52,424 nucleotides of DNA, taken from the NCBI GenBank assembly GCA_017502875.1, contig JAFVUF010000003.1, forward strand, positions 1 to 52,424, in the 5' to 3' direction. Source of the DNA: Clostridia bacterium. GTDB lineage: Bacteria; Bacillota; Clostridia; Oscillospirales; CAG-272. Shown one piece after another: positions 17,805-27,500 of the stretch (within the stretch, counting starts at the first letter, position 1; each line of letters opens with the position of its first letter). The position numbers and the translations under genes were made by a program. The notes beneath the pieces were generated by a model. It saw only the letters and a program-made list of their open reading frames with translations, was not told the DNA's origin and made no database searches.

Positions 17805-20042
17805 ATGGCAAATTTAGTTATAGTTGAGTCGCCCTCAAAGGCGACTACCATAAAAAACTACCTTGGTTCAGGTTATAAGGTAATTGCGTGTCAGGGCCAC
17901 GTCAGAGACCTGCCCAAGAGTACGCTCGGAGTTGACGTAGACAACGACTTCGCTCCGCATTACATTAATATCAGAGGCAAGGGCGACCTTATAGCCACCC
18001 TCAAAAAAGAGGCTAAAACTGCGGGTAAGATTTTTCTCGCAACCGACCCTGACCGTGAGGGTGAAGCTATATCGTGGCACCTCGCCAACGCGCTCGGACT
18101 TCCTATCGAGCAGACCAAGCGCGTATCCTTCAACGAGATAACAAAGCCCGCGGTAAAGGCCGCTATAAAGGCTCCCAGAAATATAGATATTAAGCTTGTT
18201 GATTCTCAGCAGGCAAGACGTATTCTTGACCGTATAGTCGGTTACAAGCTCAGTCCTTTCCTTTGGAAAACCGTCAAAAGCGGTCTTTCGGCAGGAAGAG
18301 TTCAGTCCGTCGCTACAAGAATAATAGTTGAAAGAGAGCAGGAAATAAACAGCTTTGTTCCCGAGGAATATTGGCTTCTCGACGCCGCCTTCAACGAAGG
18401 AAGCGTCAAAGCGAGATATTTCGGTAAAGCGGGCAACGGCGCAAAAACCGAGCTTAAAAACGAGGCTGAGACCATGGCTATCGTAAAAGAGCTTGAGGGT
18501 CTTCCCTTTACCGTCAAAAGCGTAAAGAGAGCTATCCGCCAGAAGAATCCGGCTCCGCCCTTCAACACCTCGTCTATGCAGCAGGAGGCGGCTAAAAAGC
18601 TTGGCTTCCAGTCGCAGTACACTATGCGAATAGCGCAGGAGCTTTACGAGGGTATCAATCTCGGCTCCGAGCACGGCGGTACCCACGGTCTTATCACCTA
18701 TATGCGTACCGACTCCCTCCGTGTTTCCGCGGAGGCGACCTCCGCAACCAAGGACTATATCGCCGAGAAGTACGGAAACGATTACGTTCCCTCTCAGACG
18801 CGAGTCTACAAAACAAGAGATAACGCTCAGGACGCTCACGAGGCTATCCGCCCCGCTGACATAACGCTTGAGCCGGACTCTATTAAGAAATACCTCTCCC
18901 CAGGTCAGTATAAGCTTTACAAGCTGATATGGAGCCGCTTTGTTGCCAGCCAGATGGCAAACGCTCAGTTTGATACGGTAAGCTCCGATATTCAGTCGGG
19001 CGACCACATTTTCCGCGTAAGCGGATACGTTGTCAAATTCAACGGCTTTATGGCTCTTTACGAGACTGACGACGAGGAGGAAAGCGAAAGCAACCGCCTG
19101 CCCGACTTAAAGAAAGGTCAGACGCTTACTCTTGACGAGCTTATCCCCACACAGAAATTCACCGAACCGCCCGCAAGATACAACGAGGCTACTCTTATCA
19201 AGTTCCTTGAAGAAAAGGGTATCGGACGCCCCTCGACCTTCGCGCAGATTATCTCCACGATAATCTCCCGCGGATACGTAAAGCGCGCCGGGCACTCTCT
19301 CGTTCCCACCTCGCTTGGCGAGATAACGACTCAGATAATGCTTGATAACTTCCACGACATCGTTGACTATAAGTTCACCGCTCAGATGGAGGACAGCCTT
19401 GACAGCATAGCTGACGGCGAAAACACTCTTGTTTCCGTACTTAAAGGCTTCTACAAGGGCTTTGCCGAAAACCTCGAAAAAGCCGAAGCGGAGGCAAAAA
19501 ATATGTCCATCGTTATCCCAGAGGAGCAGACCGACATTATCTGCGACAAGTGCGGAAGCGTTATGGTCGTCAAAAACGGCAGATTCGGTAAGTTCGCCGC
19601 TTGTCCGAATTACCCCGAATGTAAGAATACCAAGCCTCTTGATTCCACCGCGAAGCCTGCCGCCGAGCCTGAGGATACAGGTCTTACCTGCGAGAGCTGC
19701 GGCGGAAAGCTCGTTATAAGAAACGGCAGATACGGCTCGTTCTACGCTTGTGAGAATTTCCCGAAGTGTAAGTTCACAAAGCAGATTACCAAGGAAATAG
19801 GAGTTCCCTGCCCTAAGTGCGGCTCAAGCGTGGTCTCCAAGCGCGGAAAGAACAGCTTCGTTTTCTTTAGCTGCGAGAAGTATCCCGAATGCGACTTTTC
19901 TTCATGGGACCAGCCCGCTAAGGAAAAGTGTCCCGTTTGCAACGGAACTCTTATGATTAAGAAGGGTAAGAAGCTTATTTACTGCTTTAACAAGGAAGAA
20001 TGCGGATATTCCGCTCCGTACGAAGTAAATGACGATGAATGA
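17805..20042 (+). CDS. topA: DNA topoisomerase I (type IA)
   Basis: A 745-residue enzyme that relaxes negative supercoils. The Toprim domain starts with [18 protein letters not shown], and [13 protein letters not shown] is its acidic metal site. The active-site tyrosine is Tyr299 in ITYMRTDS. Four C-terminal zinc-finger units follow: CDKCG...CPNYPEC, CESCG...CENFPKC, CPKCG...CEKYPEC, and a degenerate CPVC...CFNKEEC. The last codons overlap the start of trmFO. Confidence 0.97.
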
Positions 20043-21366
20043 TAAAAAAGTTACCGTTGTCGGTGCCGGACTTGCCGGCGCTGAGGCGGCGTACCAGATA
20101 GCTAAGCGAGGCGTTTCGGTAACGCTCTACGAGATGAAGCCGAAAAAACGCACTCCAGCGCATTCCTCGGATAAATTCGGAGAGCTGGTATGCTCCAACT
20201 CCCTTCGCTCACTCCAGATAACCAACGCCGCGGGTATGTTAAAGGACGAGCTTCGCAGGCTTGATTCGCTTATTATGGCGGCGGCAGACGCAAGCGCGGT
20301 TCCGGCAGGGGCGGCTTTGGCGGTTAACCGAGAGGAATTTTCGAGCTTTATTACCGATAAAATCAAAAATCACCCTCTGATAACGGTTATCGAGGAGGAG
20401 GTCGAGCGTATTCCAAAGGACTGCGTCTGCGTTATCGCAAGCGGTCCGCTTACCTCTGACGCTCTCGCAAGCGATATTTCCGACTTTTTTGGCGATAAAA
20501 GGCTTTACTTTTTCGACGCGGCGGCTCCGATAGTCGACGCACAGTCGCTTAATTATAATATAGTTTTCGCTCAGTCCCGTTACGACAAGGGAGACGCCGA
20601 TTATCTCAACTGCCCTATGGATAAGGATCAGTACCTTGCCTTTTACGAGGCGCTTATCGGCGCTGAGGAGGCGGCACTTCACGGCTTTGACAGGGAGGAG
20701 CAAAAGGACCTTACCGTATTTGAAGGCTGTATGCCCGTTGAGGTAATGGCTAAAAGAGGCGTTGACACTCTGCGCTTCGGTCCTATGAAGCCGGTTGGTC
20801 TTACCGACCCGAAAACAGGACGCGAGCCTTACGCCTGTGTTCAGCTCCGAGCCGAAAATAAGGAAAAAACAATGTATAACCTCGTAGGCTTCCAGACTCA
20901 CCTTAAAATAGGTGAGCAGAAGCGTGTTTTCGGCATGATTCCCGGTCTTGAAAACGCCGAATTCCTACGCTACGGAGTTATGCACAGAAACACATATATA
21001 AACTCTCCCGGACTTATTCAGCCCACCTACGCCACCGTCGTCCGTCCCGAGCTTTTCTTTGCCGGACAGATGACGGGTGTCGAGGGATATATCGAGAGCG
21101 CGGCCTCCGGCCTGCTCGCGGGAATCAACGCCGCCAAAACGGCGCTTAGCGAGGCTCCGCTTATATTCCCCGAAAGCACCGTTATCGGCTCTATGGCTGC
21201 TTACGTCAGCCGCGGCGGTACGGGAAAATTCCAGCCTATGAACGCTAATTTCGGAATTATCGAACCACTCGGCTTTAAGGTCAAAGGTGGCAAGAGCGCA
21301 CGAAACGAGGCGCTATACCGTAAGGGCATGGAGGCGCTGGATAAATTTATCGGAGAGAATTTATAA
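20035..21366 (+). CDS. trmFO: Methylenetetrahydrofolate-tRNA (uracil-5-)-methyltransferase
   Basis: 443 residues from the ATG at 20035; an ATG two codons earlier (20029) is an equal alternative. It is a folate- and FAD-dependent enzyme that makes m5U54 in the tRNA T loop. The FAD fold is [38 protein letters not shown] and the late [15 protein letters not shown] are TrmFO hallmarks and separate it from MnmG. It overlaps topA by 8 bp, as often seen in Firmicutes. Confidence 0.95.
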
Positions 21367-21408
21367 AACCGCTTATAAAAAGCAATATTTTAAGGAATAA
21401 CCGTTAAT

Positions 21409-22815
21409 ATGAACGAAAATTTCAATTTACTAACCGTACAGAACGCGCTTGACTACGTTTTCAAGGACGCCTCGCTTATTAAGACCGCCTTCGTACATAA
21501 ATCCTACGAGGCGAAGGGCGAGGAAAATAACGTAAGTCTCGCGTTTCTCGGAAAGCAGCTGCTCTCCTTCGTTCTGTGCGACTATATTACGTCAAGACTT
21601 CCCTATTCTGACGAAAAGCAGCTTTCTTATCAGACCGAAAGCTACCTTTCAGCTCTGAATACGGACGGCTATATAAAGGAAAAGGGGCTTAGCCGCTTCG
21701 TTATGCTTTCCGCTATAAACGAGCCTATGCGCGACACGTCCACGCTCGGCAAAGAGATATTCTACGCCATAGTCGCGGCTATCTACCGAGACGGAGGTCT
21801 GCCCTCTCTTAAAGGCTTTCTTATGCCTATCATTCGGGCTTGCGGCGGCGATACCCACTATCAGCCGACAACCGAGGGTAAGATAATTACAGGCGCGGAC
21901 GAAGGCTCTGACGGCGCTCCGCATATAAAAAACGAGCGTCTGAGACGCCCCGCAAAAAGCGGCTCAATAGGCTTTTCAAAGGCGGAAACCGTTAATAATG
22001 AAGCCGTAAAAAAAGCAGAGCCTACTAAAAAAGAAAAAAACATATCAAAGCTATTAAAGAAAAAAGAAGACGTTGGCAAGGCGTTACGGGAAAAGCCTCA
22101 AAAAAAGGCTAAAAAGGAAGAAATCACCTCTATTCCCGAGCGAGAGGAAGCGCCAAGGCAAGAAAGAAAATTCATTCGCGACCCATTCGCGCCCGTAAAG
22201 CTCTCTGACGAGCTTCGTAACTTTAAGCCGAAAAAGCCTTCAAAATACGAGGAAAAGTCCGCAATGCCCGAAAAGCCGCTTAGAGAGCCTACGCCGTCCG
22301 CCGTTACGCAAAACGACGACGCAAACTACAAATCGCTCCTTCAGGAGTACGTTCAAAAGAATATTCGCTCGTCAAACGTTCTTCTTAAATACGGGGTAAC
22401 TCAGGTTGGCAGAGGTAAATGGCGCGCTGAGATAAAGCTTCAGGAGCATTCACTCGCGAAAGGCGAGGGAGACAGCAAAAAGGAAGCCGAAAAGGCTGCC
22501 GCAAGGCTTGCCTATCAGGCTATATGCGATAAGAGTACAAGCGAGCATAAGTGGTTCGCTTCGCTCGGAAACGGCTCTTTTACGGTAAACGAGCCCTCCT
22601 CCGACTACGTTTCAAAAATCAATCAGCATTTCCAGAGGCTTAATCGCTGCTCAAACGTTCCCGTTGCGTATGAAAAAAAGAATTCGGGAAAACGAAAGGA
22701 ATTCCTCGTTTCCGTTGTATTCGACGGAAAGGAAATAGCTGAGGGCAGAGCAAGCACGCTTAAAGAAGCAAAGCAGAACGCGGCTAAGGTCGCCTGCGAG
22801 AAATTAGGAATATAA
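21409..22815 (+). CDS. RNase III-like pseudoenzyme with two dsRNA-binding domains
   Basis: 468 residues. Residues 10-145 align colinearly with the catalytic domain of the neighbouring Rnc: VFKDASLIKTAFVHKSY, LAFLGKQLLSF and IFYAIVAAIYRDGG match YSFENKGLLSEALTHSSY, LEFLGDSVLEI and AFEALLGAIYLDSG. The metal-binding acids are gone: Rnc Glu48, Glu51, Asp55 and Glu127 correspond to Val42, Ala45, Lys49 and Tyr119. A Lys/Glu/Pro-rich linker (150-305) follows. Two dsRBD-like units complete the protein (about 306-373, ending GDSKKEAEKAAARLAYQAI, and 399-466, ending ASTLKEAKQNAAKVACEKL). It lies 2 bp before rnc. A non-catalytic RNA-binding or Rnc-partner role is inferred. I do not recognise a named family. 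Confidence 0.85.
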   Translation: MNENFNLLTVQNALDYVFKDASLIKTAFVHKSYEAKGEENNVSLAFLGKQLLSFVLCDYITSRLPYSDEKQLSYQTESYLSALNTDGYIKEKGLSRFVMLSAINEPMRDTSTLGKEIFYAIVAAIYRDGGLPSLKGFLMPIIRACGGDTHYQPTTEGKIITGADEGSDGAPHIKNERLRRPAKSGSIGFSKAETVNNEAVKKAEPTKKEKNISKLLKKKEDVGKALREKPQKKAKKEEITSIPEREEAPRQERKFIRDPFAPVKLSDELRNFKPKKPSKYEEKSAMPEKPLREPTPSAVTQNDDANYKSLLQEYVQKNIRSSNVLLKYGVTQVGRGKWRAEIKLQEHSLAKGEGDSKKEAEKAAARLAYQAICDKSTSEHKWFASLGNGSFTVNEPSSDYVSKINQHFQRLNRCSNVPVAYEKKNSGKRKEFLVSVVFDGKEIAEGRASTLKEAKQNAAKVACEKLGI

Positions 22816-22817
22816 AA

Positions 22818-23531
22818 ATGTCAAACGGTAAAAATTTATGTACGCTTGAGCAAAAGCTCGGATATTCCTTTGAAAACAAGGGGCTGCTTTCCGAGGCGCT
22901 CACTCATTCCTCGTACGCAAACGAGCTTATGCAAAGAAATATCCCCTCAAGGTCTAACGAAAGACTTGAGTTTCTTGGAGACTCGGTGCTTGAAATTATA
23001 GCCAGCACCTATCTTTTCGAAAGCTACGCCGACGTTCCGGAGGGTGAGCTTACCAAGATACGCTCCGAAATAATCTGCACCGACGCCCTCTGCGATTACG
23101 CAAAGGAGATAGGACTCGGCGACTATCTGCTTCTCGGAAACGGCGAAAGAAAGTACGACGGCAAAAACAAGCCCACAACACTTGAAAACGCCTTCGAGGC
23201 TCTGCTCGGCGCAATTTATCTGGACAGCGGCTGTACGCTTGAAAGGGTTCGTGATTTCGCTATCCCCTACATCTCAAAAAGAGCTAAGGAAGCGGAAATA
23301 GACTCCACTGATTATAAGTCCGAGCTTCAGCAGATAATCCAGCAGACTCCAGGTGAAACGCTCAGCTATGAGGTTACCGACAGAGTAGGCCCAGATAACG
23401 CTCCGACGTTTACCGTAGCGGCGCTGCTCAACAGTAACGTTATCGGTACGGGTACAGGTCATTCAAAGCGCAAGGCGGAGCAGAATGCCGCTAAAAACGC
23501 GCTTACAAGGTTCTTTAAAAAGAGCTACTGA
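22818..23531 (+). CDS. rnc: Ribonuclease III
   Basis: 237 residues with the full signature NERLEFLGDSVLE (Glu48, Glu51, Asp55), ENAFEALLGAIYLD (Glu127), and a C-terminal dsRBD (about 165-234, with GTGHSKRKAEQNAAKNAL). It cleaves double-stranded RNA in rRNA and mRNA processing. One oddity: the residue corresponding to the metal-ligand Asp114 of E. coli is Asn124 here. It starts 2 bp after the pseudoenzyme gene and precedes the radical SAM gene and smc. Confidence 0.95.
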   Translation: MSNGKNLCTLEQKLGYSFENKGLLSEALTHSSYANELMQRNIPSRSNERLEFLGDSVLEIIASTYLFESYADVPEGELTKIRSEIICTDALCDYAKEIGLGDYLLLGNGERKYDGKNKPTTLENAFEALLGAIYLDSGCTLERVRDFAIPYISKRAKEAEIDSTDYKSELQQIIQQTPGETLSYEVTDRVGPDNAPTFTVAALLNSNVIGTGTGHSKRKAEQNAAKNALTRFFKKSY

Positions 23532-23535
23532 GAAT

Positions 23536-24549
23536 ATGAAAAAACACGTTAATATTCCCGTTTTTATTCCGCATTACGGTTGTCCTAACGCCTGCGTTTT
23601 CTGCAACCAGAAAAAGATAACCGGAAAGCCCTGCTACGATAAAAACGAGGTCGTAGCGGAAATCGAGGACGCGCTGAAAACTGTTGACACGGATAACACC
23701 GAGGTCGAGCTTGCCTTCTTCGGCGGCAGCTTCACCGCTATTCCCGAAAACGAAATGCTGGGTCTGTTGGAGGTCTCGGATATCTTCCTGAAAAGAGGAC
23801 AAATAAACAGTGTAAGGCTCTCTACCCGTCCCGACGCTATAACGCCTTATATCCTTGATATTCTGAAAGCTCACGGCGTAAAAACGATTGAGCTTGGGCT
23901 TCAGAGCTTCTCGGACAAGGTGCTTTGCGCCTCTAAACGGGGGCATACCGCGTCTCAGTCGGCTTCAGCCTGCAAGCTTATAAAGGAGTACGGCTTTACG
24001 CTTATCGGTCAGATGATGGCGGGACTTCCCTGCTCCACTGTTTCAGACGAGCTTTACACGGCGAATATGATTTGCTCGCTCGGCTGCGACGGCGCGAGAA
24101 TTTATCCTACGGTTGTATTCCCGGATACCGAGCTTATGAGAATGCAGGAGGCGGGTGAGTATACGCCGCTTTCAACCGAAGACGCCGTTATGCGTACCGC
24201 GGAAATACTGAAAATATTTATTGATAACGGTATTCCCGTTATCAGAATAGGGCTCTGCTCAAACGAGACGTTAAGCGACCAAAGATACGCCGAAAGCTAT
24301 CACCCCTCTGTCGGTGAGCTTGCGCTTAACCGTTACTATCTTATGAAAATGACCGATATGCTATCTAAAAGCCCCGACACTTGCGGTAAAACAGCTCTGT
24401 TTTACGTTTCAAGGGGTAAAATAAGCCAGGCGGTAGGTCAAAAAAGAGCAAACGTCCTTGCTCTTATCAAGCGATTTTCGCTTAGGGACGTAAAGATAAA
24501 GGAAAAAGATGAATTAAGGGCGTTTTCGCTCTTGCTCGATATAAAGTAA
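23536..24549 (+). CDS. Radical SAM protein, Elp3-like
   Basis: 337 residues from the ATG at 23536; the open frame that begins at 23485 inside rnc is unlikely to be used. The cluster motif is Cys16-x3-Cys20-x2-Cys23 in HYGCPNACVFCNQ. FFGGSFTA, STRPDAI, ELGLQSFSDKVL and GLPCSTVSDELYTANM follow, as in Elp3/HemN-type radical SAM enzymes. The Elp3 acetyltransferase half is missing. Genes of this type often lie between rnc and smc in Clostridia. Substrate unknown; tRNA modification is possible. Confidence 0.87.
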   Translation: MKKHVNIPVFIPHYGCPNACVFCNQKKITGKPCYDKNEVVAEIEDALKTVDTDNTEVELAFFGGSFTAIPENEMLGLLEVSDIFLKRGQINSVRLSTRPDAITPYILDILKAHGVKTIELGLQSFSDKVLCASKRGHTASQSASACKLIKEYGFTLIGQMMAGLPCSTVSDELYTANMICSLGCDGARIYPTVVFPDTELMRMQEAGEYTPLSTEDAVMRTAEILKIFIDNGIPVIRIGLCSNETLSDQRYAESYHPSVGELALNRYYLMKMTDMLSKSPDTCGKTALFYVSRGKISQAVGQKRANVLALIKRFSLRDVKIKEKDELRAFSLLLDIK

Positions 24550-24565
24550 AAGAAAGGAAGTACAT

Positions 24566-27500
24566 ATGCGTTTAATCTCACTTGAGCTACATGGGTTCAA
24601 ATCCTTTCCCGACAAAACGCTGCTTAAATTCGCTCCCGGTGTAACAACTGTCGTTGGACCTAACGGAAGCGGTAAAAGTAACATTTCCGACGCTGTGCGA
24701 TGGGTTCTCGGAGAGCTGTCCACCAAGAGCATTCGAGGAAGCAAGATGGAGGACGTCGTTTTCAGCGGCGCTGACTCTCGTAAGCCTATGTCCTTTGCCG
24801 AGGTCTCCATAACCTTTGACAACCGTGAGGAAGCAGGCTTTTCCCGTCTTGCGAGCGACTACGACGAGGTTACCGTTACACGCCGATACAACAGAAACGG
24901 CTCCAGCGAATATATGATAAACCGCCGTCCCGCACGCCGTCAGGATATTCTTACGCTCTTTATGAATACCGGTGTCGGACGCGACGGCTACTCTATCGTA
25001 AGCCAGGGTAAAGCAGCGGAGATAATTTCCCAAAAGAGCGACGAGCGCCGTAACGTTTTCGAGGAAGCGGCTGGTATATCCAAATACCGCTACCAGAAAA
25101 CCGACGCTGAAAAGAAGCTCGCCGAAACCTCCCTTAACTGCGAGCGTTTAGCGGATATTCTTGCCGAAAAGAAGCATACGCTTCACCGCCTTGAAAGAGA
25201 CGCCGAGAAGGCAAGGCAGTTTATTGAGGTTTACGAAAAGAAAAAGGAAGCTGACGTTTCCCTCTCCGTTTACGATATAAGCTGCACAAAATCCGAGCTT
25301 TCCGAAAAAAAGGAGAAGTTTGAGGTTCTGGCAAGGTCTCTTAATATCGCGGACAACGAGATAACCGACGATAATAACGAGTACGAAAGACTCGATATTG
25401 AGAAAAACAGGGTTAAAGAGAAATCCTCAGCTCTTACGGGTAAAATCGAGGATATGGCAAACGACCGCTATTCAAGCGATACGAGAGTTCAGGTCTTGAA
25501 AAACGACCTTGAGCATCTTACCAAGAACATTTCCGCCACCAAGGAAAAGCTAAGTGAGCTGAGCGAGGCGTTAAAAGAATACAACGCAAGCGCTGACAAG
25601 GCAAGCGAGGCGCTTACCGCCGTAAGAGGCGAGCACGACGCCCGCAACGCAGAAAACGATAAATTAGCCGCCTCTCTTGAAGCAATGAAGGCTGATATGG
25701 ACAAGCTGGAGCTTGATATTGAGGCGGAGCTGGAGCTGAGCGATACCTTAAACGATAAGCTCTCCCGTCTTCGCATTGCTGGAGCTGAGCTTGAGGGCTC
25801 GGAAAGCTCAAGCGTTAGCCGCAGAGCCGAGCTTGAAAAGGAAATCGAGGACACCAAGCGCTCCACTGAGACGAGCAGAAGCGGTATGGAGCAGTATAAG
25901 CGCCGTATGGACGATTATACCGCCAAATCCGACAAGCTTAAAGCTATTGAGGAGCAAAACAATGCGGAAGCTGACAGGCTCAGACGTGAGCAGGAGGAGC
26001 TTAACCAAAAGATAGTTACCTACGCCTCCGACATCAGAGACGTCCGCACACGTATTGATAGCCTTCGCCGTATGGAGGAGCTGTTTGAGGGATATCCTCA
26101 CAGCGTTTCCGCCCTTATGAGCGCTTCAAAGGCTGGAAAAATAAAGGGTATAATCGGTCCTCTTTCTCATATCTTTTCGGTAAAGGGAGACCTTTCGCTC
26201 GCTATCGAGACGGCGCTCGGCGCAAATATCCAGAATATCGTTACCGAAACGGACGAGGCGGCAAAATCCGCTATACTTTGGTTAAAGCAGAATAACGCCG
26301 GACGTGCCACCTTCTACCCTCTCAACACAATGCAGGTAACTCCCCTCGCCGTAAACGAGGCGGAGCTTAAAAAGCACAAGGGCTATATCGGTATAGCCTC
26401 CGAGCTTATAGAGTACGACGCTAAGTTCGACAGAGTAATAAAAAATCTGCTCGGCAGAACGCTGGTGTTCGATAACATAGACAACGCAAACGCAACGTCC
26501 AAAGCCTACGGCTACCGCATAAGGATAGTAACTAAGGACGGACAGCTCATAAACGCCGGCGGTTCCTTTACGGGCGGCGCGGCAAAGCGTGAGTCAGGCG
26601 TACTCAACCGAGCCGCTACCATAGAAAAGCTCAGCGCCGACAGACTCAAGCTTGAGGGCGAAAAGAAAATCGCGGAGGATAAGCACGAGGAGGTTACCGA
26701 GAAGCTCGGCGAGCTGCTTACAAGGTCTCAGGACAACCAAAGCAAGCTTAAAATAATCTCTTCTCTGTACCAGGCTGACCTTACCCACTACACCGCGTTT
26801 GAGGCTCAGCTTAACACCGTAAACGAGAATATCGCAAAGCTGGAGGAGCAGCTTGCCGATATCGACAGCAGCGAAAACAGATTAAAGGCTGAAAAGGAGC
26901 GCATCGCTTCTGAAATCGAGGACGTAAAGCTCTCGCTCGAAAAATGCGAAATGGCAAGAGTCGAAAAAACTGAAAAGCGCGCCCAAATGCGCGCTCAGTA
27001 CGACGAAAAAACGGGCGTTTACAACAAAGCGCTTATAGATATCGCGGGACTTAAAAAGGACGTTGACGCGGCAATGCGCGAGCTTGAGCTTCGAATTGAG
27101 GCTAAGACCGCGTGTGAAGCTCAGATAGACAGCGCAAAGCAGTCTATTGAAAACGACAACGAGTCCATAAGGTTAAAGAACGAGGAAATCGTACGCCACG
27201 CCTCTCAGACTCAGGCATTCGCTGACACCATTGCTGAAATGACCGCTGAAAGAGATGAGGCGGAAAAGCTCGGAAACGAAATCGAAAGCAAGATGTCGGC
27301 GCTCAAAAAGCAGATAACCGACAAGATGAGCGCAAGAGAGTCGCTTTCAAACGAATACACAAAGATTGAAGGCCGTATTGAAAATCTCACCGAGGCAGTC
27401 GACAGCAGAATCGCTTACCTTCTCGAAGAATATAAGCTTACCTTCTCTGACGCCGAGGCGCTTAACTACCCTGCCGTTACAAGTGAAAACCGCAAGGAGA

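Follow-up and report, generated by a model that had tools for sequence, protein, structure and literature searches.

RNase III is active as a dimer that contains a single processing centre. Proteins of this type that have lost catalysis are known, such as mL44 of mitochondrial ribosomes, which carries an RNase III-like domain and a dsRBD. To our knowledge, RNase III dimers with only one active site have so far been studied in cells with engineered proteins and in kinetoplastids. Artificial E. coli RNase III heterodimers with one functional subunit were reportedly obtained by Conrad in 2002. In kinetoplastid RNA editing, KREPB6, KREPB7 and KREPB8 are dead RNase III partners of KREN1-3, and the authors of PMC9508840 suggest that this pairing may limit cleavage to one strand. 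RNC1 of maize chloroplasts is likewise a protein of catalytically inactive RNase III domains, according to a passage of PMC8708148. Thus, dead RNase III domains are already known in eukaryotes. For bacteria, we found no RNase III pseudoenzyme in the literature that was covered, mainly titles and abstract openings of open-licence papers, which leaves the absence of such reports unproven.

Here, we describe a candidate for such a protein, pseudo-Rnc, encoded directly upstream of rnc in a 52,424-nucleotide stretch of DNA from a Clostridia bacterium (contig JAFVUF010000003.1), which we refer to as the window. Like bacterial Rnc (TIGR02191), it combines an RNase III fold with a dsRBD, but three of its catalytic acids are replaced, it has a second dsRBD and a linker of 157 aa, and its score falls below the cut-off of this NCBIfam equivalog (108.9 versus 166.25 bits). 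With KREPB6-8, as described in PMC9508840, it has in common an RNase III domain that lacks key catalytic residues, an active RNase III in the same cell and an RNA-binding module within the same polypeptide. The KREPB proteins, however, are eukaryotic, mitochondrial and equipped with a matrin-type zinc finger, whereas pseudo-Rnc comes from a bacterium, is encoded beside rnc and carries two dsRBDs, and no zinc-finger model of Pfam matches it at E values up to 1. Furthermore, KREPB6-8 heterodimerisation is backed by cross-linking and mutants in PMC9508840, whereas that of pseudo-Rnc is a proposal from sequence. RNC1, which is also inactive, has two RNase III domains rather than one RNase III stretch and two dsRBDs, and mL44, although similar in its domains, differs in that pseudo-Rnc gives no match to PF22935 at E values up to 1. 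Finally, the Mini-III proteins of Bacillota have the RNase III fold and constitute a second RNase III-type protein per cell, but they lack the dsRBD (stated in a passage of PMC8708148), of which pseudo-Rnc has two PF00035 stretches; separate ORFs of Mini-III size are found in all seven genomes of the genus. Judged by its catalytic residues, pseudo-Rnc would thus stand outside the active RNase III family and, having no zinc finger, outside the KREPB family, and its working mode may be KREPB-like.

Domain organisation of pseudo-Rnc

The pseudo-Rnc frame runs from ATG to TAA and ends 2 bp before the start of rnc, which encodes 237 aa (Table 1). A first-pass annotation, made from the letters of the DNA, had described a domain colinear with the catalytic domain of the neighbouring Rnc, a basic linker of about 150 residues and two dsRBD-like units, and it had recommended a Pfam search as a check. 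This architecture is borne out. Blastp aligns the two proteins colinearly (27% identity across 157 columns; E 3e-10), the linker counts 157 aa with a pI of 9.7 in the window protein and is basic across the homologues (pI 8.2-9.6), and the Pfam profiles PF14622 (residues 20-138; cut-off 35 bits), PF00636 (29.7 bits; cut-off 27) and PF00035 (85.6 bits over two stretches; cut-off 23) are all matched above their cut-offs. An RNase III fold is also indicated for the homologues, since both PF14622 and PF00636 are matched in seven of seven at E values up to 0.01.

Table 1. Features of the pseudo-Rnc and rnc genes in the window
Feature	Position	Strand	Evidence
RNase III pseudoenzyme CDS (468 aa), predicted	21409..22815	+	ORF; homologue in 7/7 genus genomes
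RNase III domain without catalytic acids, residues 10-142	21436..21834	+	PF14622, 52.5 bits; profile match to structures 1o0w, 3n3w, 1yyk
LAFLGK, altered form of the LEFLGD signature (E40 to Ala, D44 to Lys; Phe46 = Aquifex Phe41 'ball', retained)	21538..21555	+	Alignment
Tyr119 at the E110 position (E. coli E117)	21763..21765	+	Alignment
Basic linker, length-variable, residues 146-302 (84-265 aa in seven homologues)	21844..22314	+	pI 9.7
Linker motif FIRD(A/P)(L/F)xxVxLs, short, conserved; FIRD in 6/7 homologues	22171..22218	+	
dsRBD 1	22327..22518	+	PF00035, 43.9 bits; 32.9% identity to the Rnc dsRBD over 70 columns
dsRBD 2	22606..22806	+	PF00035, 54.4 bits
rnc, intact RNase III with E48, E51, D55, E127 and one dsRBD	22818..23531	+	TIGR02191, 246.7 bits (cut-off 166.25)

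A PF00035 search of the whole genome found three dsRBDs in total, one in Rnc and two in pseudo-Rnc. The pair matches the tandem dsRBDs of PKR (1qu6; profile positions 326-465). In dsRBDs, a lysine usually opens the second helix and contacts RNA, and the lysines at this position, K358 and K452, one in each domain, are invariant in all seven homologues. The whole protein is basic (pI 9.4), in contrast to the acidic Rnc encoded next to it (pI 5.1). Given its kept dsRBDs, pseudo-Rnc probably binds dsRNA. As a separate observation, the short FIRD motif is conspicuous within an otherwise variable linker and resembles a binding motif for some partner.

Loss of the catalytic acids

In what follows, residues carry Aquifex aeolicus numbers, which were taken from the alignment and from the ball-and-socket passage of PMC3991619. 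The first-pass annotation had proposed that Val42, Ala45, Lys49 and Tyr119 take the place of catalytic acids. The alignment places these residues opposite E48, E51, D55 and E127 in the neighbouring Rnc, which correspond to E37, E40, D44 and E110 of Aquifex, so that the window protein reads V, A, K, E and Y at E37, E40, D44, D107 and E110. For E37, however, the loss is not a property of the clade, as four of the seven homologues still have Glu there. The other three acids are replaced in every homologue, E40 by Ala, Ser, Val or Ile, D44 by Lys, Arg or Met and once by Glu, and E110 by Tyr, Leu or His; a conserved clade without these acids, which had been named as support for the original reading, therefore exists. 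A different register that would restore the acids can be ruled out, since LxFLG is invariant in all seven sequences and aligned without gaps.

Outside this clade, the three acids are kept almost without exception. We aligned 108 other RNase III rows; letters are present at E40, D44 and E110 in 106, and Glu, Asp and Glu are kept in 105. The sole exception is a misframed fragment, which represents reading frame two of a gene with a frameshift (L093). Of the two rows that are blank at these positions, one is likewise a frame of L093 and the other is the Rnc of genome G003. Within the genus, a complete Rnc that keeps all three acids stands beside pseudo-Rnc in six of the seven genomes (six of six complete copies), the seventh being G003, in which the contig end cuts the gene after its first three acids.

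Published E. coli mutants help to interpret these replacements. Table 1 of PMC8708148 gives D45A as inactive in vivo, with low activity in vitro and dsRNA binding retained, and E117K, E117A and E117Q as inactive but likewise able to bind dsRNA. Because mutants at D45 and E117 lose activity, the replaced residues of pseudo-Rnc argue strongly that it does not cleave RNA. The same table lists poor dsRNA binding for E41A, D45E and D45N, which weakens the case for dsRNA binding by pseudo-Rnc.

The fifth position, D107 (E. coli D114), also a metal-ligand position, varies among proteins with the other acids in place. It is Asn in the window Rnc (Asn124), in five of the six complete Rnc of the genus and in 11 of the 50 Rnc examined, with E40, D44 and E110 kept. 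In addition, a group of RNase III proteins from Clostridia (L049, L050, L051, L053, L054 and L059) has Ser aligned at D107 and keeps E40, D44 and E110; this is a divergent set, scoring only 77-103 bits against the window Rnc.

Hydrophobic core and dimer interface

In a set of 50 Rnc (6 from the genus, 31 from the family and 13 from the order), 34 columns reach a conservation of 90% or more. We counted such a column as kept when six or seven of the seven pseudo-Rnc rows have the same residue. By this measure, pseudo-Rnc retains 10 of the 15 non-polar columns, 1 of the 11 with a charged residue or His, and 2 of the 8 others (Gly, Ser or Asn). The difference between non-polar and charged or His columns is significant when the eight Gly, Ser and Asn columns are left out (Fisher p 0.005, from counts entered by hand). 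As far as residues can tell, this pattern shows that the fold is kept and the active site lost, and it does not by itself indicate dimerisation.

For the dimer joint, the evidence points in two directions. Phe41, the 'ball' of the RNase III joint in the ball-and-socket passage of PMC3991619, and Gly43 are both kept in seven of seven homologues, and a passage of PMC8708148 lists the E. coli variants F42G, F42D, F42R and G44D as inactive. On the socket side, which should receive the Phe41 ball of Rnc, the Arg found at Aquifex K71 in 50 of 50 Rnc is absent from all seven pseudo-Rnc (Leu in five, Thr in one and Lys in one), and the L67 position holds Ala or Pro in three of seven, in a stretch around which the alignment is less certain. 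The missing Arg speaks against a normal joint, which is at least partly rebuilt, and with these changes at the socket dimerisation could be altered or lost.

Gene neighbourhood and taxonomic range

A homologue is present in all seven genomes examined of the genus, a group of uncultured Clostridia, always directly upstream of rnc. The spacing of 2 bp to which the first-pass annotation had drawn attention is found in the window, but other genomes have gaps of up to 210 bp (2, 17, 22 and 26 bp in four genomes; 132, 143 and 210 bp in three, with the start in G005 taken as the ATG after AAGGAG). The same annotation had presented the gene as an operon partner of Rnc. The position of the gene agrees with this, but all surrounding genes are syntenic across the genus, and adjacency is therefore weak evidence of physical partnership. 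In the window, topA, trmFO, the pseudo-Rnc ORF, rnc, a radical-SAM-like gene, smc and ftsY all lie on the + strand, with topA, trmFO, smc, ftsY and the radical-SAM-like gene named from their protein sequences. Since scans of 19900-24700 for promoters and terminators remained at chance level (3 found versus 3.3 expected and 8 found versus 7.3 expected), it is from strand and spacing that we infer a common transcript for pseudo-Rnc and rnc. No known structured RNA reached the Rfam gathering score within 19000-25000.

The neighbourhood also varies in one respect. In five of the seven genomes, trmFO and the pseudo-Rnc gene lie 1.0-1.1 kb apart with another ORF in between, which matches PF02504, presumably the PlsX family, in the two copies scanned (G001 and G002). 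This ORF is missing at 21367-21408 of the window (genome G000) and in G005 (L034:12028-12130), where the space is too short for it.

The proposed survey of the gene upstream of rnc across Clostridia thus found conservation in the whole genus, but the gene is restricted to this genus within the genomes surveyed and not spread over the class. The profile survey of the family (196 genomes; best E value per genome) found no homologue outside the genus, nor did those of the order (295 genomes) and of the phylum (398 genomes) among the matches listed, up to 1e-20 and 1e-24, respectively. With a profile built from the clade alignment, the listed matches outside the genus reached at most 93 bits, compared with 334-702 bits in the best stretch of members. 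The genome samples of family, order, phylum and class overlap and are even draws rather than complete sets. In the class sample, a PF14622 search of 393 genomes gave two or more matches in 24 genomes apart from G000. Most of the second matches are of Mini-III size, and none adjoins rnc in the 25 genomes in which they were located (these 24 and G032).

Other RNase III-like frames were seen away from rnc. Separate frames of 318-430 aa occur in seven genomes of the class (G275:C20, with two frames in this genome, G313:C2, G492:C93, G536:C50, G619:C9, G725:C16 and G790:C10) and may form a second family; it is possible that they are relatives of pseudo-Rnc far from rnc. In G032, which belongs to another genus of the same family, two more RNase III-like frames keep the acids (L039:8076-8555 and L041:423-1427); both are on contigs other than that of its rnc, and one, at 159 aa, is too short to include a dsRBD.

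Origin and selection

Pseudo-Rnc is probably a diverged paralogue of rnc, with a bacterial Rnc as its parent. In the tree, the seven pseudo-Rnc RNase III domains group together (99/98) at the end of a long stem (1.86), and the six Rnc of the genus form a separate clade (98/92). Uniting the pseudo-Rnc clade with that of the genus Rnc costs 3.41 log-likelihood units and is not rejected (p-AU 0.397). The placement of the clade is unsettled, and pseudo-Rnc may have come from the rnc of this genus by duplication. Pseudo-Rnc evolves far faster than Rnc. The mean pairwise identity of the RNase III domain is 38.6% for pseudo-Rnc (21 pairs) versus 67.1% for Rnc (15 pairs, excluding G003, which somewhat flatters Rnc conservation), and that of the dsRBDs is 45.9% and 45.6% versus 74.0%.

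In spite of this divergence, the reading frame is open in seven of seven genomes, with no internal stop even though identity between the RNase III domains falls as low as 27%. Three pairs were examined for selection, and dN is lower than dS in every case that allowed dS to be computed. For G002 and G006, dN/dS is about 0.30 in the RNase III domain and about 0.10 in dsRBD 2, rough values with dS at or near saturation. The absence of stops from seven divergent copies, together with dN/dS, therefore argues for selection for a protein, and the description of pseudo-Rnc as a conserved, fast-evolving and, by its residues, catalytically dead paralogue beside an active rnc is well supported. An assembly or frameshift artefact is ruled out, as the frame is open in seven separate genome assemblies. 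Nor does the gene look like foreign DNA, since its GC (0.477) and GC3 (0.529) are just slightly under those of rnc, trmFO and smc (0.487-0.522 and 0.55-0.592). A mobile or phage origin was also rejected: there was no relative in viral contigs, where one of two short patterns was matched by 73 stretches, none of them confirmed. Phage records gave no relative at E values up to 1e-5, and pseudo-Rnc has no PADLOC match.

Possible modes of action

The explanation that we tentatively consider best is that pseudo-Rnc pairs with Rnc as a heterodimer with one active site. A diverged rnc paralogue would have had its metal-binding acids replaced and would have acquired a second dsRBD along with a long basic linker, while keeping much of the hydrophobic core and the Phe of the dimer helix. 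Expressed from the cluster that also encodes Rnc, it would join an Rnc monomer by way of their RNase III domains, and the resulting dimer, with one active site and three dsRBDs, would nick one strand or be steered to chosen duplexes, while Rnc homodimers would persist for rRNA. We favour this reading because the Phe41 ball is kept and because there are precedents in kinetoplastids and, reportedly, in engineered E. coli enzymes. Counting against it are the altered socket, a divergence much quicker than that of Rnc and a range confined to one genus in the surveys.

Nearly as likely, though by no means secure, is a close rival in which pseudo-Rnc does not touch Rnc at all: a free-standing dsRNA-binding protein, homodimer or monomer, that competes with Rnc or shields or remodels duplexes, its dead domain being a scaffold only. 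Two dsRBDs with their invariant lysines, a PKR-like profile match of the pair, a basic protein beside an acidic Rnc, remodelled socket residues and fast evolution would all suit such a protein, as would the E. coli E117 mutants of PMC8708148 (Table 1), which are dead in cleavage yet competent in binding. A pure dsRNA shield, however, would need neither the RNase III domain kept in seven of seven homologues nor its invariant Phe41 ball, and the gene always adjoins rnc.

We consider it unlikely that pseudo-Rnc is a ribosome or RNA-maturation factor whose dead RNase III domain holds structured RNA, in the manner of mL44 or of maize chloroplast RNC1. RNC1, with its two inactive domains, is a precedent (PMC8708148), and mL44-type chains do appear in the profile search, but the matches are weak (E 0.001-0.003) and lie in dsRBD 2 or a short segment, and the mL44 endonuclease model PF22935, which pseudo-Rnc fails to match, is matched by the neighbouring Rnc at 1.2e-8. 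Because matches to group II introns (RF00029) occur in two of the seven genomes, with 150 of 161-222 candidates scored in four of the seven, a common need for intron splicing is not evident, and the Mini-III-sized ORFs of all seven genomes also speak against such a factor. A role in guide-RNA maturation with Cas9 is unlikely as well, as there is no Cas9 match in seven of seven genomes, two of which are 79-81% complete. Least probable by far is a functionless, decaying duplicate of rnc. Fast evolution, a variable linker and lost catalytic residues are what decay would produce, but the open frames, the excess of dS over dN, the invariant residues of dsRBDs and core, and an extra dsRBD conserved in seven of seven homologues are not.

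To return to the heterodimer that we prefer, a still more tentative proposal can be attached to it, namely that this is a natural bacterial RNase III heterodimer, in which the dead subunit would add two dsRBDs and make Rnc either a targeted enzyme or a nickase with a single site. Control of RNase III by a pseudoenzyme, hitherto described for kinetoplastid editing complexes, would then have arisen independently in bacteria through rnc duplication. Pseudo-Rnc may thus steer or restrain Rnc. If the genus has indeed fixed a cleavage-dead, tandem-dsRBD RNase III beside rnc, it would offer a compact two-gene system in which a pseudoenzyme reshapes a conserved RNA-processing enzyme.
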